Positions 43,925-49,729 of a stretch of DNA of 64,000 nt are shown here, one piece after another. The stretch lies in assembly GCF_011064595.1 (NCBI RefSeq), contig NZ_JAALJI010000013.1, positions 124,001 to 188,000 of the forward strand, given 5' to 3'. The notes under the pieces were generated by a model. That model was given only the letters and a program-made list of their open reading frames with translations. It had not been told where the DNA came from and ran no database searches. Position numbers and translations under genes: made by a program. Position 1 is the stretch's first letter; each line of letters opens with the position of its first letter. The DNA comes from Paludisphaera soli. Lineage in GTDB: Bacteria > Planctomycetota > Planctomycetia > Isosphaerales > Isosphaeraceae.

Positions 43925-45679
43925 TCAGGCGCCGATCCGTCGCTGGGGAAGGATGTAGCCCAGGGCCAGCAGCTTCTCCACGATCGCGTCGACGCACTCG
44001 GGGACGCCGAGCCGGGAGGTGTCGAGGGTCACCTCGGCGCCCTCCGGCGCCTCGTAAGGGGCGTCGACCCCGGTGAAGCTCATCCCCTTGCCGGCCCCGA
44101 CCGCGGCGCGGGCCTGGGCGTAGAGGCCCTTCACGTCGCGACGCTCGCAGACGTCGACGGGCGTCGAGCAATAGACCTCGACGAAGTTCCCTTTCGAGAG
44201 AGCCCTCGCCTCGTCGCGGACGGCCTTGTACGGGCTGATGACGGAGCAGAGCGTGGTCCCGCCGTGCTGGGCCACCAGCCCCGCCACGTAGCCGACGCGG
44301 CGGATGTTGGCGTCGCGATCTTCCTTGCTGAAGCCCAGGCCTTTCGACAGGTGGGTTCGGATCTCGTCGCCGTCGAGCAGCGAGCAGTTGCGGCCGTACT
44401 CGGCCAGCCGCTCGACCAGCGCGTGGGCGACGGTACTCTTGCCCGAACCGGAGAGGCCGGTGAACCAGATGGTCAGGCCCTGACGCGAGCGGGGGGGATT
44501 GGCCTCGTTGAGGATCTCGGCGACGGCCGGTCGGCTGAACCAGTCGGGGAGCAGCCGGCCCTTCGCGAGGTACTCGTCGCGGACCTGCGCGTCGGTGAGC
44601 GCGGCCGTCTCGACCCCCTCGGGCGCGGCGTCGACGTACTCGTACCGCCGCCGGCCAGGAAGGTAGACCATCGGTCGGGCGTCGACCAGGCCGACGCCCA
44701 ACTCGTCGGCGTACTCCGCCGTCGCCTCGCCGGGACTTGCGAGGTCGCGGCCGACGATCAGGTGCGAGCAGCCGAAGTTGCGACGGACGATCGCATGCAG
44801 GAGGGTCTCGCGGGGGCCGGCCACCCTCATCGAGAGCGGCAACAGGCTGAGGACCGGGCCCCCCGGCCCAGGGCCGTCGTCGAGCAGGGCGCGGTAGCAG
44901 CGGATGTGGGTGTAATGCTCCACGTCGCCCGGCCGGGCCACACCGACGACCGGATGGATCAGCAGCCCTCCGCCGATCTGTTCGGCGGCGCGCCGGGCCA
45001 TCTCCTCCTGGGCGCGATGCACCGGCTCGTCGGCATGGAGGGCGACGACCCGGGACCAGCCCAGGGACCGGAAGTGTTGGCGAAGCTTGGCGGGAGTGCG
45101 TCGCAGATCGACGAAGTCGTAGTGCGGCGGGGTGCGGACTACTTCGAGACGGCCGGCGGCGTAATGATTCGGGATCCGGCCGAGGTAGGCGACGGACGGG
45201 TGCTTCGCGTCGAGCGCGCCATAGACGTGCCGGGCCTCGGCTTCCTTGTCGGGCCGGAAGATCTCCTCGACGTGGAGGAACGCCAGCAGGTTGCCGTAAA
45301 CGTCGCGCAGCGCCAGGGTCCCGCCTTGGGCGACGCCCTCGCCCGGCGTGACCGGGAGGACCACCGGCAGCGGCCAGAAGGTGCCGTCCGCGAGACGTTG
45401 CTCCCGGACGACGCGTTCGTAGTCGGCCTTGCCGAGGAACCCCCGGAGCGGCGAGAAACCGCCGACCGCCAGAAGCTCCAGGTCGCAAACGCCGCGCTCG
45501 TCCAGGGTCACGCTGGGGTGATCCTTCGCTTCCGCCTTCATGGCGACGGCCCGGCCTTCCTCAACCACGAGGTCGACCAGGGCGCCTCCGTAAGGCGTGA
45601 TCAGGGCCCCATTCGACTCGTTCGCGGCGCTAATCGCGTGCCTCCCTTCGTCGGGCCGTTCCGGCGTCAGATCGTCCAT
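43925..45679 (-). CDS. Sat-CysC fusion: ATP-sulfurylase-like domain (motif degraded) plus APS kinase
   Basis: A 584-residue fusion. Residues about 20-390 are ATP-sulfurylase-like (ending around MVYLPGRRRYEYVDAAPEGV). The conserved nucleotide loop Q[T/S]RNPxHRAH is replaced by ALHADEPVHRAQ at 213-224, losing the Gln, Arg, Asn and last His; the GRDxAG block reads GRDLASPGE. Residues about 400-584 are an APS kinase with intact P-loop TGLSGSGKS (407-415) and the expected LLDGDEIRTHL. The start at 45679 overlaps rrf2 by 13 bases. A Ile (ATT) with GGGAGG six bases upstream at about 45634 is another possible start. The sulfurylase half may be inactive. Confidence 0.85.
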   Translation of the reverse strand: MDDLTPERPDEGRHAISAANESNGALITPYGGALVDLVVEEGRAVAMKAEAKDHPSVTLDERGVCDLELLAVGGFSPLRGFLGKADYERVVREQRLADGTFWPLPVVLPVTPGEGVAQGGTLALRDVYGNLLAFLHVEEIFRPDKEAEARHVYGALDAKHPSVAYLGRIPNHYAAGRLEVVRTPPHYDFVDLRRTPAKLRQHFRSLGWSRVVALHADEPVHRAQEEMARRAAEQIGGGLLIHPVVGVARPGDVEHYTHIRCYRALLDDGPGPGGPVLSLLPLSMRVAGPRETLLHAIVRRNFGCSHLIVGRDLASPGEATAEYADELGVGLVDARPMVYLPGRRRYEYVDAAPEGVETAALTDAQVRDEYLAKGRLLPDWFSRPAVAEILNEANPPRSRQGLTIWFTGLSGSGKSTVAHALVERLAEYGRNCSLLDGDEIRTHLSKGLGFSKEDRDANIRRVGYVAGLVAQHGGTTLCSVISPYKAVRDEARALSKGNFVEVYCSTPVDVCERRDVKGLYAQARAAVGAGKGMSFTGVDAPYEAPEGAEVTLDTSRLGVPECVDAIVEKLLALGYILPQRRIGA

Positions 45680-46086
45680 TCGTGCGGCGTGGCCTGGGCG
45701 ACCAGGGCGGCCACGGTGGTCCGGTCGAGGACCGCCCGCTCCGCCGCGCGGACCTGATCCCACAGGTGGTTCAAGATCTGGGCGGCGCGGCGGTTGGGGG
45801 CGGCGGTCTCGCGCGAGGCGTCGTCGGGGCCGTCGACGGCCGTCAGGACCTCGCGGATCGAGATGGCTTCGGGATGCCTCGCCAACTGGTATCCCCCGGC
45901 GGCCCCTCGCGTGCTGACGACCAGGCCCGCCCCCTTGAGGTGGAGCAGGATCTGGACCAGGTAGCGTTCCGGGATGCCGTGGGATTCCGAGATGTCGCGG
46001 ATCCGCAGCGGAGGCGCGTTGGGGCCCTGCTGGGCGAGGGCCAGAACGGCCAAACAGGCGTACTCGGCTTTGGCGGATACCTTCAT
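45667..46086 (-). CDS. Rrf2-family transcriptional regulator
   Basis: A 139-residue winged-helix regulator: KVSAKAEYACLAVLALAQQG, IRDISESHGIPERYLVQILL and KGAGLVVSTRGAAGGYQLAR are the family's recognition-helix region. Its one Cys is at residue 10 and the Fe-S cysteine triad of IscR/NsrR is absent, so it resembles the cluster-free CymR type that controls cysteine metabolism. It lies between cysH and sat-cysC in one minus-strand operon and overlaps the latter by 13 bases, which points to autoregulation of sulfate assimilation; that is inference. Confidence 0.9.
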   Translation of the reverse strand: MKVSAKAEYACLAVLALAQQGPNAPPLRIRDISESHGIPERYLVQILLHLKGAGLVVSTRGAAGGYQLARHPEAISIREVLTAVDGPDDASRETAAPNRRAAQILNHLWDQVRAAERAVLDRTTVAALVAQATPHEWTI

Positions 46087-46133: not shown

Positions 46134-46856
46134 TCAGAGCTGGCTGCTATCCAGCGAGTGCAGGCCGCACTCGGTTTTGGCCTGTCCGGCCCAACGACCG
46201 GCTCGCTCGTCTTCCCCCGCGCCCACGGCCTTCGTGCAGGGGAAGCAGCCGACCGAGGGATAGCCCTGGTCGTGCAGCGGGTTGTAGGGGATCTTGTTGG
46301 CCACGATGAACGCCCAGACGTCGCGGCGGGTCCACTTCAAGAGCGGGTTCACCTTCGCCAGGTCGAACTTGCCGTCCCAGCCGACGATCTTCGCCTGGGC
46401 TCGATGGGAAGACTGGTCGGCGCGAATGGCCGTGATCCAGGCCTCGTAGCCCTCCAGGGCGCGACGCAGCGGCACGATCTTGCGATCGTAGCAGCACTGG
46501 TCCGAGTTCCGGACGTACAACGGCCCGCCATGCTCTCGCTCGTACTCCGGGACCGACTTCTCGGCGCTCACCAGCTCGATTTCGATGCCGTACTTCTCCA
46601 TCAGCCGGTCCCGGACCGCCAGGGTCTCGGCGAACTGATAGCCCGTGTCGAGGTTGAAGATCCGGGTGGTGGCCCCGATCTGCGCGAGCATGTGGATCAG
46701 GATACACCCCTCCGGACCGAACGCCGTGGCCATCGTCAGCCGCGACCCGAAACGCTCGACCGCCCACCTCAGGATCTCCGTGGGGGAGGCCCCGGCAAGG
46801 GCGGCATTGGCTTCGGCAAGTTCTTCCGCAGAGAGCTTTTCCGTCACGGTGGCCAT
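46134..46856 (-). CDS. cysH: Phosphoadenylyl-sulfate/adenylyl-sulfate reductase, CysH
   Basis: A 240-residue reductase producing sulfite from activated sulfate with thioredoxin. The catalytic segment ECGLH is at 229-233. The cluster cysteines are paired CC at 121-122 (DQCCYDRK) plus C204/C207 (GCFPCTKA), the arrangement of the [4Fe-4S] APS-reductase type rather than the PAPS-specific, cluster-free enzymes. Other landmarks are TAFGPEGCILIHML and NLDTGYQFAET. It heads the operon cysH-rrf2-sat-cysC and has a recognisable promoter 40 bases upstream. Confidence 0.92.
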   Translation of the reverse strand: MATVTEKLSAEELAEANAALAGASPTEILRWAVERFGSRLTMATAFGPEGCILIHMLAQIGATTRIFNLDTGYQFAETLAVRDRLMEKYGIEIELVSAEKSVPEYEREHGGPLYVRNSDQCCYDRKIVPLRRALEGYEAWITAIRADQSSHRAQAKIVGWDGKFDLAKVNPLLKWTRRDVWAFIVANKIPYNPLHDQGYPSVGCFPCTKAVGAGEDERAGRWAGQAKTECGLHSLDSSQL

Positions 46857-46924: not shown

Positions 46925-47330
46925 CATTCGTCGCGAAGAGGCGGGCCGTCGCGACCGAACGGTGTGTCGTGGGGTGGATACTTGAAGGGCGGGAAGGGAC
47001 GATAGAATGATATGGTATCGCCGAGGCGATGTCTGCCTCCCCGCCCCGCGTTCGGGCCCTCCTCTCGCCCGAGCAAATTCTTTCTAACGAAGACGCGGAC
47101 CCGAAGGGTTGCCAGACCATCACGCCAGCCGGATCTTTCGGTTCTTCCTGGATAAATCGTCCTATCGGGGCTGTCGAAGTGTCGAGTCGGATAGATGGGG
47201 ATTGTGTCGAGGTCGGCATGAGGGCGGAGGGCCTGATGCTGGACCCGCGATCGGTTCGGAGTCGCGGACGCCGATGGCGGACGCCGACGCAGAACGGCGC
47301 AGCCTCCTTTTTTTCGAGAATGCCCGAGTC
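46925..47330. other. Region between cysH promoter and cydA
   Basis: About 400 bases upstream of cydA. A possible minor promoter for cydA is TTGAAG (46982) with TAGAAT (47003), but their spacing of 15 is short. A frame from 47029 to 47334 ends in an ATGA overlap with the cydA start; it has lower GC than its neighbours and no family match, so I do not call it a gene. Confidence 0.4.
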
Positions 47331-48665
47331 ATGACCAACCTGATGGCCGCTCGCCTCCAGATGGCGATGTCTCTCGGTTTCCACATCATCTTCGCCGCGA
47401 TCGGCATCGCGTTGCCGCTGATGATGGCGATCTCCGAGGCCTGCTGGCTCCGGACCGGCGATCCCGTCTACCGGGTCCTGGCTCAACGGTGGGCGAAGGG
47501 GGCGGCGATCCTCTTCGCCGTCGGCGCGGTCTCGGGGACCGTGCTCTCCTTCGAGCTGGGGCTGCTTTGGCCGGGCTTCATGAAGCTGGCCGGGCCGGTC
47601 GTCGGCGTCGGATTCGGGCTGGAGGGCTTCGCGTTCTTCACGGAGGCCATCTTCCTCGGGGTCTACCTGTACGGCTGGGATCGGATCCCGCCGCTGGCGC
47701 ACTGGCTCGCGGGGGCCGTCGTGGCGGCGAGCGGGGCTCTTTCGGGCGTGTTGGTCCTGACGGTCAACGCCTGGATGAATACGCCGGCCGGATTCCGGCT
47801 GGTCGACGGCCGGCCGGTCGACATCGATCCGTTCGCCGCCTTGACGAGCCCGGCCATGCTCGCCGAGGCGATCCACATGACCCTGGCGGCGTACGCGGCG
47901 ACGGGACTCCTCGTCGCGGGGGTGCACGCGATCCTCCTGATGAAGGATCGGGTGAACCCGTTCCATCGCCGGGCCCTCGGCATCGCCCTGATCGTCGGGG
48001 GGCTGGCCTCGTTGCTCCAGCCGTTGAGCGGCCATTACGCGGCGCACGTCGTCGCCGAGACCCAGCCGATCAAGCTCGCGGCGATGGAGGGCCAATTTAA
48101 GACGGAGCGCCGGGCCCCGCTGCGGATCGGCGGCCTCCCCGACCCCAGCACCGGCGAGACGCGCTTCGCCCTGGAGATCCCCGCCGGGCTCAGCATCCTG
48201 GCCTATAACGACCCGGACGCCGAGGTGAAGGGCCTTGAGGCGTTCCCGGCCCACGTCCGTCCGCCGGTCGTGGTGGTCCACATGGCCTTCCAGCTCATGG
48301 TGGCCTGCGGCATGGCGATGGCGGCCGTCTCGCTCTGGGCGGCCGTCTCGTGGTGGCTGACCCGACGACTGCCGACGGGGAGGGCCTTCCTCTGGGCCGC
48401 GGCCCTGGTCAGCCCGCTGGGGATGATCGCCATCGAGGCCGGCTGGACGGTGACGGAGGTCGGCCGTCAGCCGTGGATCATCCAGAACGTGATGCGGACG
48501 ACCGACGCCGTGACGTCCGTCCCTGGGCTCTGGATCTCGCTCTCCGCCTATACGGCCCTCTACGCCGGCCTCGGCGTCATCGTCGTCCTGCTGCTGCTGC
48601 ACCAGTTCCGCGTCAGCCCACGCGGCGACGAGCTGCAAGCGGCCTCGATCAAGGAAAACTCGTGA
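47331..48665 (+). CDS. cydA: Cytochrome bd-type quinol oxidase subunit I
   Basis: A 444-residue membrane subunit with about nine spans that carries hemes and oxidises quinol with oxygen as acceptor. Heme ligands match: His18 (LGFHIIF), His182 (EAIHMTLAAY) and Met323 (HMAFQLMVACG). GWTVTEVGRQPW near residue 390 is the family signature. The Q-loop is short, as in the cyanide-insensitive (CioA) type. The ATG at 47331 was chosen because upstream in-frame residues are not family-like. cydB follows with a one-base overlap. Confidence 0.94.
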   Translation: MTNLMAARLQMAMSLGFHIIFAAIGIALPLMMAISEACWLRTGDPVYRVLAQRWAKGAAILFAVGAVSGTVLSFELGLLWPGFMKLAGPVVGVGFGLEGFAFFTEAIFLGVYLYGWDRIPPLAHWLAGAVVAASGALSGVLVLTVNAWMNTPAGFRLVDGRPVDIDPFAALTSPAMLAEAIHMTLAAYAATGLLVAGVHAILLMKDRVNPFHRRALGIALIVGGLASLLQPLSGHYAAHVVAETQPIKLAAMEGQFKTERRAPLRIGGLPDPSTGETRFALEIPAGLSILAYNDPDAEVKGLEAFPAHVRPPVVVVHMAFQLMVACGMAMAAVSLWAAVSWWLTRRLPTGRAFLWAAALVSPLGMIAIEAGWTVTEVGRQPWIIQNVMRTTDAVTSVPGLWISLSAYTALYAGLGVIVVLLLLHQFRVSPRGDELQAASIKENS

Positions 48666-49729
48666 TGTCGCTCCTGACCTCGATGACCCCCGCCGAGGGG
48701 GTCGCCGCCGCGATGCTCGTCGCCCTGATCGCCTACGCCCTGCTGGGGGGCGCGGACTACGGGGCGGGAGTGTGGGACCTGCTCGCCCGCGGCCCACGTG
48801 CGGAGGCCCAGCGCGAACTCATCGCGCGGGCGATCGGTCCGGTCTGGGAGGCGAACCACGTGTGGCTGATCATCGTGATCGTGCTGCTGTTCACAGGCTT
48901 CCCGACGGCGTTCACGGCCGTGATGACCACGCTGCACGTCCCGCTCTCGCTCATGCTGATCGGCGTCGTGCTCCGGGGCTCGGCTTTCATCTTCCGGAGC
49001 TATGACGTCACCGAGGCGGCCAAGCGGCGCTGGAATCGATTCTTCTCGATCCCGAGCGTCGTGACCCCGGTGTTGCTGGGCGCGGTGATCGGCGCGATCG
49101 CCACGGGCGAGCCCGGCCGGGCGATGGAGGCGGGAGGGGCCGTCCCGCTGTTCGCGACGTGGCTGCGGCCGTTCCCGCTGGCGGTGGGGCTGTTCGCCCT
49201 CAACATCTTCGCCTACCTAGCCGCGGTCTACCTGACCCTGGAGACGTCGGACCACGACCTGCGGGAAGACTTCCGGAAGAAAGCCCTGGCCTCGGCGATC
49301 TTACTGGGGGGCGTGGCCTGGGTCGTCTACCTGCTGGCGAAGTCGGACGCGCCCCTGGTTTACGAGGGCCTGGGCCGTTCGTCGTGGGGCGCGCCGGTGC
49401 GTTACGCTACCGGTGCGTTTGCGATCCTGGCGATCGTAACGCTCTGGCGGCGTTGGTATGGGGCGGCCCGAATCGCGGCGATGCTGCAGACGGCCCTGAT
49501 CCTCTGGGGGGCGGCCACGAGCCAGTACCCGTACCTCGTCCCCCCCGGGATCGACCTGACGACCGGGGCCGCGCCGCCGATCGTCCACAAGCTGCTGCTG
49601 ATCGCGTTGGGATGCGGGTCGCTGATCCTCATCCCCTCGCTCGTCTATCTGTTCCGCGTCTTCAAGGGGCACACGTTCCGGGACGGTCGCGAGCCCCGAG
49701 AACAAACGGTCAGGCCGTCGTCGGCCTGA
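48665..49729 (+). CDS. cydB: Cytochrome bd-type quinol oxidase subunit II
   Basis: A 354-residue membrane subunit with about eight to nine spans. Family sequence includes YALLGGADYGAGVWDLLARG, AIGPVWEANHVWLIIVIVLL, FPTAFTAVMTTLHVPLSLML and GSAFIFRSYD. It starts with TGATG overlap directly at the cydA stop (ATG 48665; an in-frame GTG at 48662 is an alternative). The end overlaps the converging leuD gene by 20 bases. Confidence 0.94.
   Translation: MSLLTSMTPAEGVAAAMLVALIAYALLGGADYGAGVWDLLARGPRAEAQRELIARAIGPVWEANHVWLIIVIVLLFTGFPTAFTAVMTTLHVPLSLMLIGVVLRGSAFIFRSYDVTEAAKRRWNRFFSIPSVVTPVLLGAVIGAIATGEPGRAMEAGGAVPLFATWLRPFPLAVGLFALNIFAYLAAVYLTLETSDHDLREDFRKKALASAILLGGVAWVVYLLAKSDAPLVYEGLGRSSWGAPVRYATGAFAILAIVTLWRRWYGAARIAAMLQTALILWGAATSQYPYLVPPGIDLTTGAAPPIVHKLLLIALGCGSLILIPSLVYLFRVFKGHTFRDGREPREQTVRPSSA

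Follow-up and report, generated by a model that had tools for sequence, protein, structure and literature searches.

The window analyzed here is a 64,000-nucleotide stretch of the Paludisphaera soli genome (contig NZ_JAALJI010000013.1, positions 124,001 to 188,000), and coordinates below refer to it unless another contig is named. Its minus strand carries, at 43925..45679, an intact open reading frame (ORF) that starts with an ATG at 45679 and encodes a Sat-CysC fusion protein of 584 residues. Pfam models PF14306, PF01747, and PF01583 delimit a PUA_2 domain (residues 27 to 182), an ATP-sulfurylase-like catalytic domain (residues 191 to 392), and an APS kinase domain (residues 400 to 576). The start of the gene overlaps an Rrf2-family regulator gene (45667..46086, minus strand; PF02082) by 13 bases. 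The first gene of this same-strand run is cysH (46134..46856, minus strand), which encodes a (phospho)adenylyl-sulfate reductase scoring 270 bits against NF002537, above the cut-off. The CysH sequence contains CC...CxxC cysteines, a pattern that is usual for [4Fe-4S] APS reductases. The cysH-rrf2-sat-cysC order was conserved in nearly all family members examined for synteny, whether their Sat-CysC was intact or altered. Genes for cytochrome bd oxidase subunits I and II (47109-49729, plus strand) adjoin the cysH operon on the opposite strand.

The sulfurylase domain of Sat-CysC is readily recognized (PF01747, 185.6 bits), and the protein falls below the cut-offs of the NCBIfam bifunctional and sulfurylase equivalog models (NF004040, 663.5 versus 669; TIGR00339, 318.9 versus 322.95). 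The RNP/HxxH loop (residues 213 to 224; 45008..45043, minus strand) reads ALHADEPVHRAQ, where the family consensus is AFQTRNPLHRAH. Within it, the QTRNPxHRAH segment has become HADEPVHRAQ, with Q-to-H, T-to-A, R-to-D, and N-to-E changes and a Gln in place of the second His, while the first His (H221) is kept. The first-pass annotation had reported the loss of the Gln, Arg, Asn, and last His from this loop, and both the translation and the family consensus agree. The losses go further than it described. The mobile loop is GVARPGD instead of GVTKPGD (residues 246 to 252; 44924..44944, minus strand), with the Lys of GxxKxxD replaced by Arg. The GRD loop is GRDLASPG instead of GRDHAGPG (residues 310 to 317; 44729..44752, minus strand), after which about 15 residues present in related proteins are missing, and the SGTxxR motif has become TDAQVR (residues 362 to 367; 44579..44596, minus strand). 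Of the 18 positions with a known catalytic or ligand role, 10 are changed in this half, which thus lacks the QTRN plus HxxH, GRDHA, GxxKxxD, and SGTxxR motifs of an active Sat.

The lost residues are ligand binders, as had been stated at first, and contact APS, sulfate, or pyrophosphate in solved structures. In that of the A. vinosum enzyme, APS is held by four RNP-loop residues (Gln, Thr, Arg, and Asn) together with the GRD-loop His/Ala, and pyrophosphate by the Asn, both His, and the Arg of SGTxxR (PMC3779200). Replacing either His of HxxH in human PAPSS1 abolishes the sulfurylase (ATPS) and spares the kinase (APSK) (PMC11697783). Five congeneric species have altered sites as well, all unlike that of the window gene. 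Six congeners display six different loops in the alignment, a pattern more suggestive of decay than of a newly conserved site. Chance, a frameshift, or a sequencing error was rejected given the intact ORF, the altered, differently lettered sites of the congeners, and the 25 of 27 family genomes lacking CysD in which 0 of 18 positions are changed. As to the proposal that the sulfurylase half is inactive or works differently, the sequence argues for inactivity, and the second option is not favored since the loops differ among congeners. The His-to-Gln change at the second HxxH position recurs in separate lineages (window Sat-CysC [P0001], G419, G420, G421, L021, L221, L244, L258, and L260-L264) and is perhaps a favored decay step. 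In an AlphaFold2 model of Sat-CysC (mean pLDDT 85.5), the two-domain fold is retained, and confidence is low where the GRD loop has its deletion. The model is closest to 2GKS, 1I2D, and 3CR8, with TM scores of 0.85 to 1I2D and 0.87 (target-normalized) to 3CR8.

The kinase half is a different matter. As already noted from the sequence, its P-loop is intact (GLSGSGKS, residues 408 to 415; 44435..44458, minus strand), and so are the LDGD motif (residues 435 to 438; 44366..44377, minus strand), the lid motif KGLYAQAR with its Lys (residues 517 to 524; 44108..44131, minus strand), and FTGxDxPYE, present as FTGVDAPYE. The kinase model TIGR00455 scores 202 bits, above its cut-off of 138.7. These features suggest that the C-terminal half is active as an APS kinase.

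An APS kinase of this kind needs APS from elsewhere, and CysND had been put forward as a possible supplier. A search of the whole genome (7.97 Mb, 99.97% complete) found no second PF01747 gene, and hence no second sat, and did find cysD (C120:71915-72802; 514 bits, above the NCBIfam cut-off) on another contig than Sat-CysC, directly followed by a cysN-cysC fusion (C120:72876-74732; L006:6808-8736). A whole-fusion query returned only two APS-kinase-like places in this genome, the window gene and CysN-CysC. The kinase half of the latter has LYGQ for LDGD, SGAYRLAD for KGLYAKAR, and MPGVTAAFE for FTGxDxPYE. In M. tuberculosis CysC, the Asp residues at these positions serve the Mg-bound water and the catalytic base, and the lid Lys stabilizes the transition state (PMC4373884). 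Since the CysN-CysC kinase half lacks these residues, the kinase of Sat-CysC is probably the only canonical one in the cell.

To examine the relation between the state of the sulfurylase site and the presence of CysD/CysN, we analyzed 45 genomes of the family (group f1, probably Isosphaeraceae). CysD and CysN co-occur in 15 of them, one of which (G397) has no Sat-CysC; G426, in which CysN-CysC runs off the end of a contig, was added to the CysD/CysN set. With the core site defined as Q, R, N, H, H, and the Arg of GRD (n = 42), genomes without CysD/CysN comprised 25 core-intact and 2 altered Sat-CysC proteins, compared to 1 intact and 14 altered in genomes with the pair (Fisher p = 3e-8). Under a threshold chosen after the data were seen, i.e., a change at any of the 18 positions, all 15 proteins from genomes with CysD/CysN were altered, and 25 of the 27 from genomes without the pair had 0 of 18 positions changed. 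The alterations are thus almost confined to genomes with another APS source, which speaks against the possibility, raised in the first-pass annotation, that active enzymes commonly carry this substitution.

The rpoB tree requires about eight changes of either trait, and a single ancient loss was rejected on this ground. Site state and CysD were concordant in 38 of 40 cases on this tree, compared to a maximum of 35 in simulations of irreversible losses independent of CysD (0 of 20,000 reached the observed concordance). Sister pairs also split as predicted (G400/G399, G401/G402, G403/G416, and G393+G394/G395). A strict independent-pairs sign test gave a median p of 0.0625, the pairs being too few for p < 0.05, and for the any-change trait it never pointed in the opposite direction; the kinase-half tree on which the joint independent-pairs test was run has few well-supported branches. 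Four genomes deserve separate mention. G423 (L176; 94% complete) and G433 (L108; 81% complete) carry an altered Sat-CysC, and neither CysD, CysN, nor a second sat was found in their assemblies, which would mean that the assemblies have gaps or that these organisms cannot activate sulfate. G428 has CysD yet a core-intact site. G395, which is without CysD, has two Sat-CysC copies, one intact (L046) and one altered copy at an early stage of site loss (L109; HRAP, SDTR), in line with redundancy.

Constraint on the sulfurylase domain is relaxed, not gone. From branch lengths on the rpoB topology, this domain evolved at a median of 9.2 times the rpoB rate in altered tips versus 1.2 times in intact ones. 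Its pairwise dN/dS was mostly 0.26 to 0.59 in altered pairs and 0.02 to 0.15 in intact pairs, still below 1 in both, and was 0.09 in the barely altered G427/G428 pair. The kinase and PUA domains were also about threefold faster in altered lineages, and kinase dN/dS was 0.09 to 0.26 in altered pairs versus 0.02 to 0.21 in intact pairs.

The noncanonical kinase half of CysN-CysC is common to all 15 family members with both genes and is strongly conserved. It also extends beyond the family, as the CysN-CysC proteins of other planctomycete families (L298-L326) mostly have LDGQ or LYGQ and likewise miss the lid Lys. Every genome listed outside the family with such a CysN-CysC has at least one further APS-kinase homologue. 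Judging from these motifs, the pathway has a second candidate pseudo-enzyme, a pseudokinase, in the kinase half of planctomycete CysN-CysC, where LxGQ is conserved. Decay of the CysN-CysC kinase as a consequence of Sat-CysC was rejected because the LxGQ state spans several planctomycete families, which implies that the change in CysN-CysC probably came first. With the incoming pair, therefore, the cell probably gained a second source of APS but no canonical kinase, and duplication of APS synthesis only would explain why decay is limited to the sulfurylase half. G397 (L168; 99% complete) offers a single case of a canonical CysN-CysC kinase (LDGD, KGLYAKAR) in a genome with no Sat-CysC. However, the L239 and L242 genomes have a canonical CysN-CysC and yet keep a Sat-CysC with a changed sulfurylase half, so the argument for kinase retention is not universal. 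As for the origin of the pair, the CysN-CysC of P. soli shares 84 to 90% identity with its counterparts from families f2 and f6, and that of G425 clusters, with support of 98/97, with a genus belonging to another family (f2). Judging from the CysN-CysC proteins compared (G000, G425, G383, G339, G266, and G367), cysD-cysNC thus seems to be transferred horizontally from one planctomycete family to another.

A wider scan of species genomes (80 loci) revealed core-altered fusions in Thiobacillus/Hydrogenophilales (the 3CR8 clade), Desulfobacterota, Thiotrichaceae, Thiogranum, and others, with intact P-loop and DGD motifs. A second sat or cysD accompanied 19 of 20 core-altered fusions tested versus 7 of 33 core-intact ones, although the associated p value (9e-8) overstates the evidence since this sample was hand-chosen and its lineages are not independent. 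Seven genomes of the wider sample combine another APS source with a core-intact fusion, and L257, the one core-altered fusion without another source, comes from a 2.1-Mb, probably incomplete assembly. At L169 (G061 C282:3256-7627), a gene for a CysD-like protein neighbors those for a CysN-CysC whose kinase half is wrecked and a Sat-CysC whose sulfurylase half is altered; as read from their motifs, these would be reciprocal half-losses within a single cluster.

Taken as a whole, these observations are best explained, and we believe with good confidence, by an APS kinase that bears a catalytically dead sulfurylase-like N-terminal half and depends on an acquired CysD-CysN for APS. CysD-CysN, encoded on the other contig, would make APS, which the CysC half of Sat-CysC would phosphorylate to PAPS. 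As the cysteine pattern of CysH is of the APS-reductase type, the APS made by CysDN probably goes straight into cysteine synthesis, and the PAPS from the Sat-CysC kinase may serve other sulfations. The direction of cause that we infer is that lineages of the family acquired cysD-cysN(C) more than once, apparently by horizontal transfer, and that the resident sulfurylase site would thereby have become redundant and have decayed in about eight lineages, independently each time. Purifying selection on the N-terminal half, although weaker, is still real, and this half would most likely persist because it serves the kinase as an oligomer scaffold or a regulatory platform, the role put forward in the case of T. 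denitrificans. We lean modestly toward a broader reading, in which a mobile cysD-cysN(C) whose own kinase half was already defective spread among planctomycetes and, where it sits beside Sat-CysC, only the sulfurylase half of the latter decays.

Conservation of the N-terminal half could also mean that it changed function and that its altered pocket binds another ligand (e.g., PAPS or APS) as an allosteric sensor for the kinase. This would mirror the fungal ATP sulfurylase, in which the allosteric PAPS site is the kinase-like half. The predicted retention of the fold and a dN/dS below 1, by which something is conserved, agree with such a role, as do the interdomain effects on activity reported for the Entamoeba APS kinase (PMC13213808). 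A new conserved site ought, however, to be common to the genus, and each species, congeners included, has an altered loop of its own, with length lost as well; we thus consider a sensor unlikely. The raised branch lengths of the kinase and PUA domains and the absence of Sat-CysC from the cysD-bearing G397 are what would be expected if the whole gene were a decaying pseudogene whose kinase motifs are intact only through lag. This is quite improbable given the low kinase dN/dS, the intact kinase motifs in every altered lineage checked, the intact ORFs, and the conserved gene order. Least credible is a slow or altered ATP sulfurylase, for although the protein retains H221 and the Arg of GRD and only just misses the equivalog cut-offs, the Q, R, N, and second His are all gone, a single His-to-Ala change at either HxxH position inactivates the human PAPSS1 sulfurylase (PMC11697783), and the T. 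denitrificans protein (3CR8), with its milder loop QARQPMHRAQ, has no sulfurylase activity going by the title of Gay 2009 (cited in PMC13213808).

An APS kinase with a sulfurylase-like half is a protein type already known, from Thiobacillus denitrificans Tbd_0210 (PDB 3CR8) and from Entamoeba, and is here reached by a separate loss. Tbd_0210 has the same domain order, altered QxRN/HxxH and GRD loops, and an intact kinase, and close relatives' genomes encode another sulfurylase (L260-L264). Sat-CysC shares with it an altered sulfurylase half fused to an intact kinase and another APS source, except that the source in the Thiobacillus group is a second Sat and not CysDN. The nearest relatives of Sat-CysC in its own family are intact, which indicates a loss separate from that of the Thiobacillus clade, i.e., a common type and not a common clade; it also aligns better to the active Aquifex enzyme than to 3CR8 (492 versus 375 bits). 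The Entamoeba histolytica APS kinase similarly combines an inactive N-terminal sulfurylase-like half with an active C-terminal kinase (PMC13213808, PMC6715247), but belongs to a eukaryote in which a separate sulfurylase supplies mitosomal APS. The bifunctional Sat-APS kinase of Aquifex aeolicus (2GKS) has the same architecture and fold and is the best sequence match among solved structures; unlike the window protein, it and the intact Sat-CysC proteins of the same family keep QTRN..HxxH, GRDHA, and SGTxxR. Penicillium ATP sulfurylase (1I2D) also has a two-domain layout with one noncatalytic half, but there it is the kinase-like half that is noncatalytic and allosteric. CysD with CysN-CysC, as in Mycobacterium tuberculosis, likewise provides a GTP-driven APS supply, the CysC part here differing from that of M. 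tuberculosis in having LYGQ/SGAY and not LDGD/KGLY. In the open-licence literature searched, we found no account of such decay recurring in association with an acquired cassette whose own enzyme is half-dead in the complementary way.

Annotation pipelines label such proteins bifunctional sulfate adenylyltransferase/kinase. Since a sizeable minority of the fusions examined are probably unable to make APS, pathway reconstruction from sat alone may mislead. Across this bacterial family, one half of a fused enzyme is repeatedly seen decaying while the other is kept, and the approximately eight parallel losses, together with intact sister species, provide natural mutants for addressing why a dead half is retained, a question left by the Thiobacillus and Entamoeba structures. 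If the proposed scenario is true, two half-dead bifunctional enzymes would complement each other in these organisms, and their repeated, directional loss would amount to a natural experiment on the pruning of fused enzymes and the retention of dead halves.
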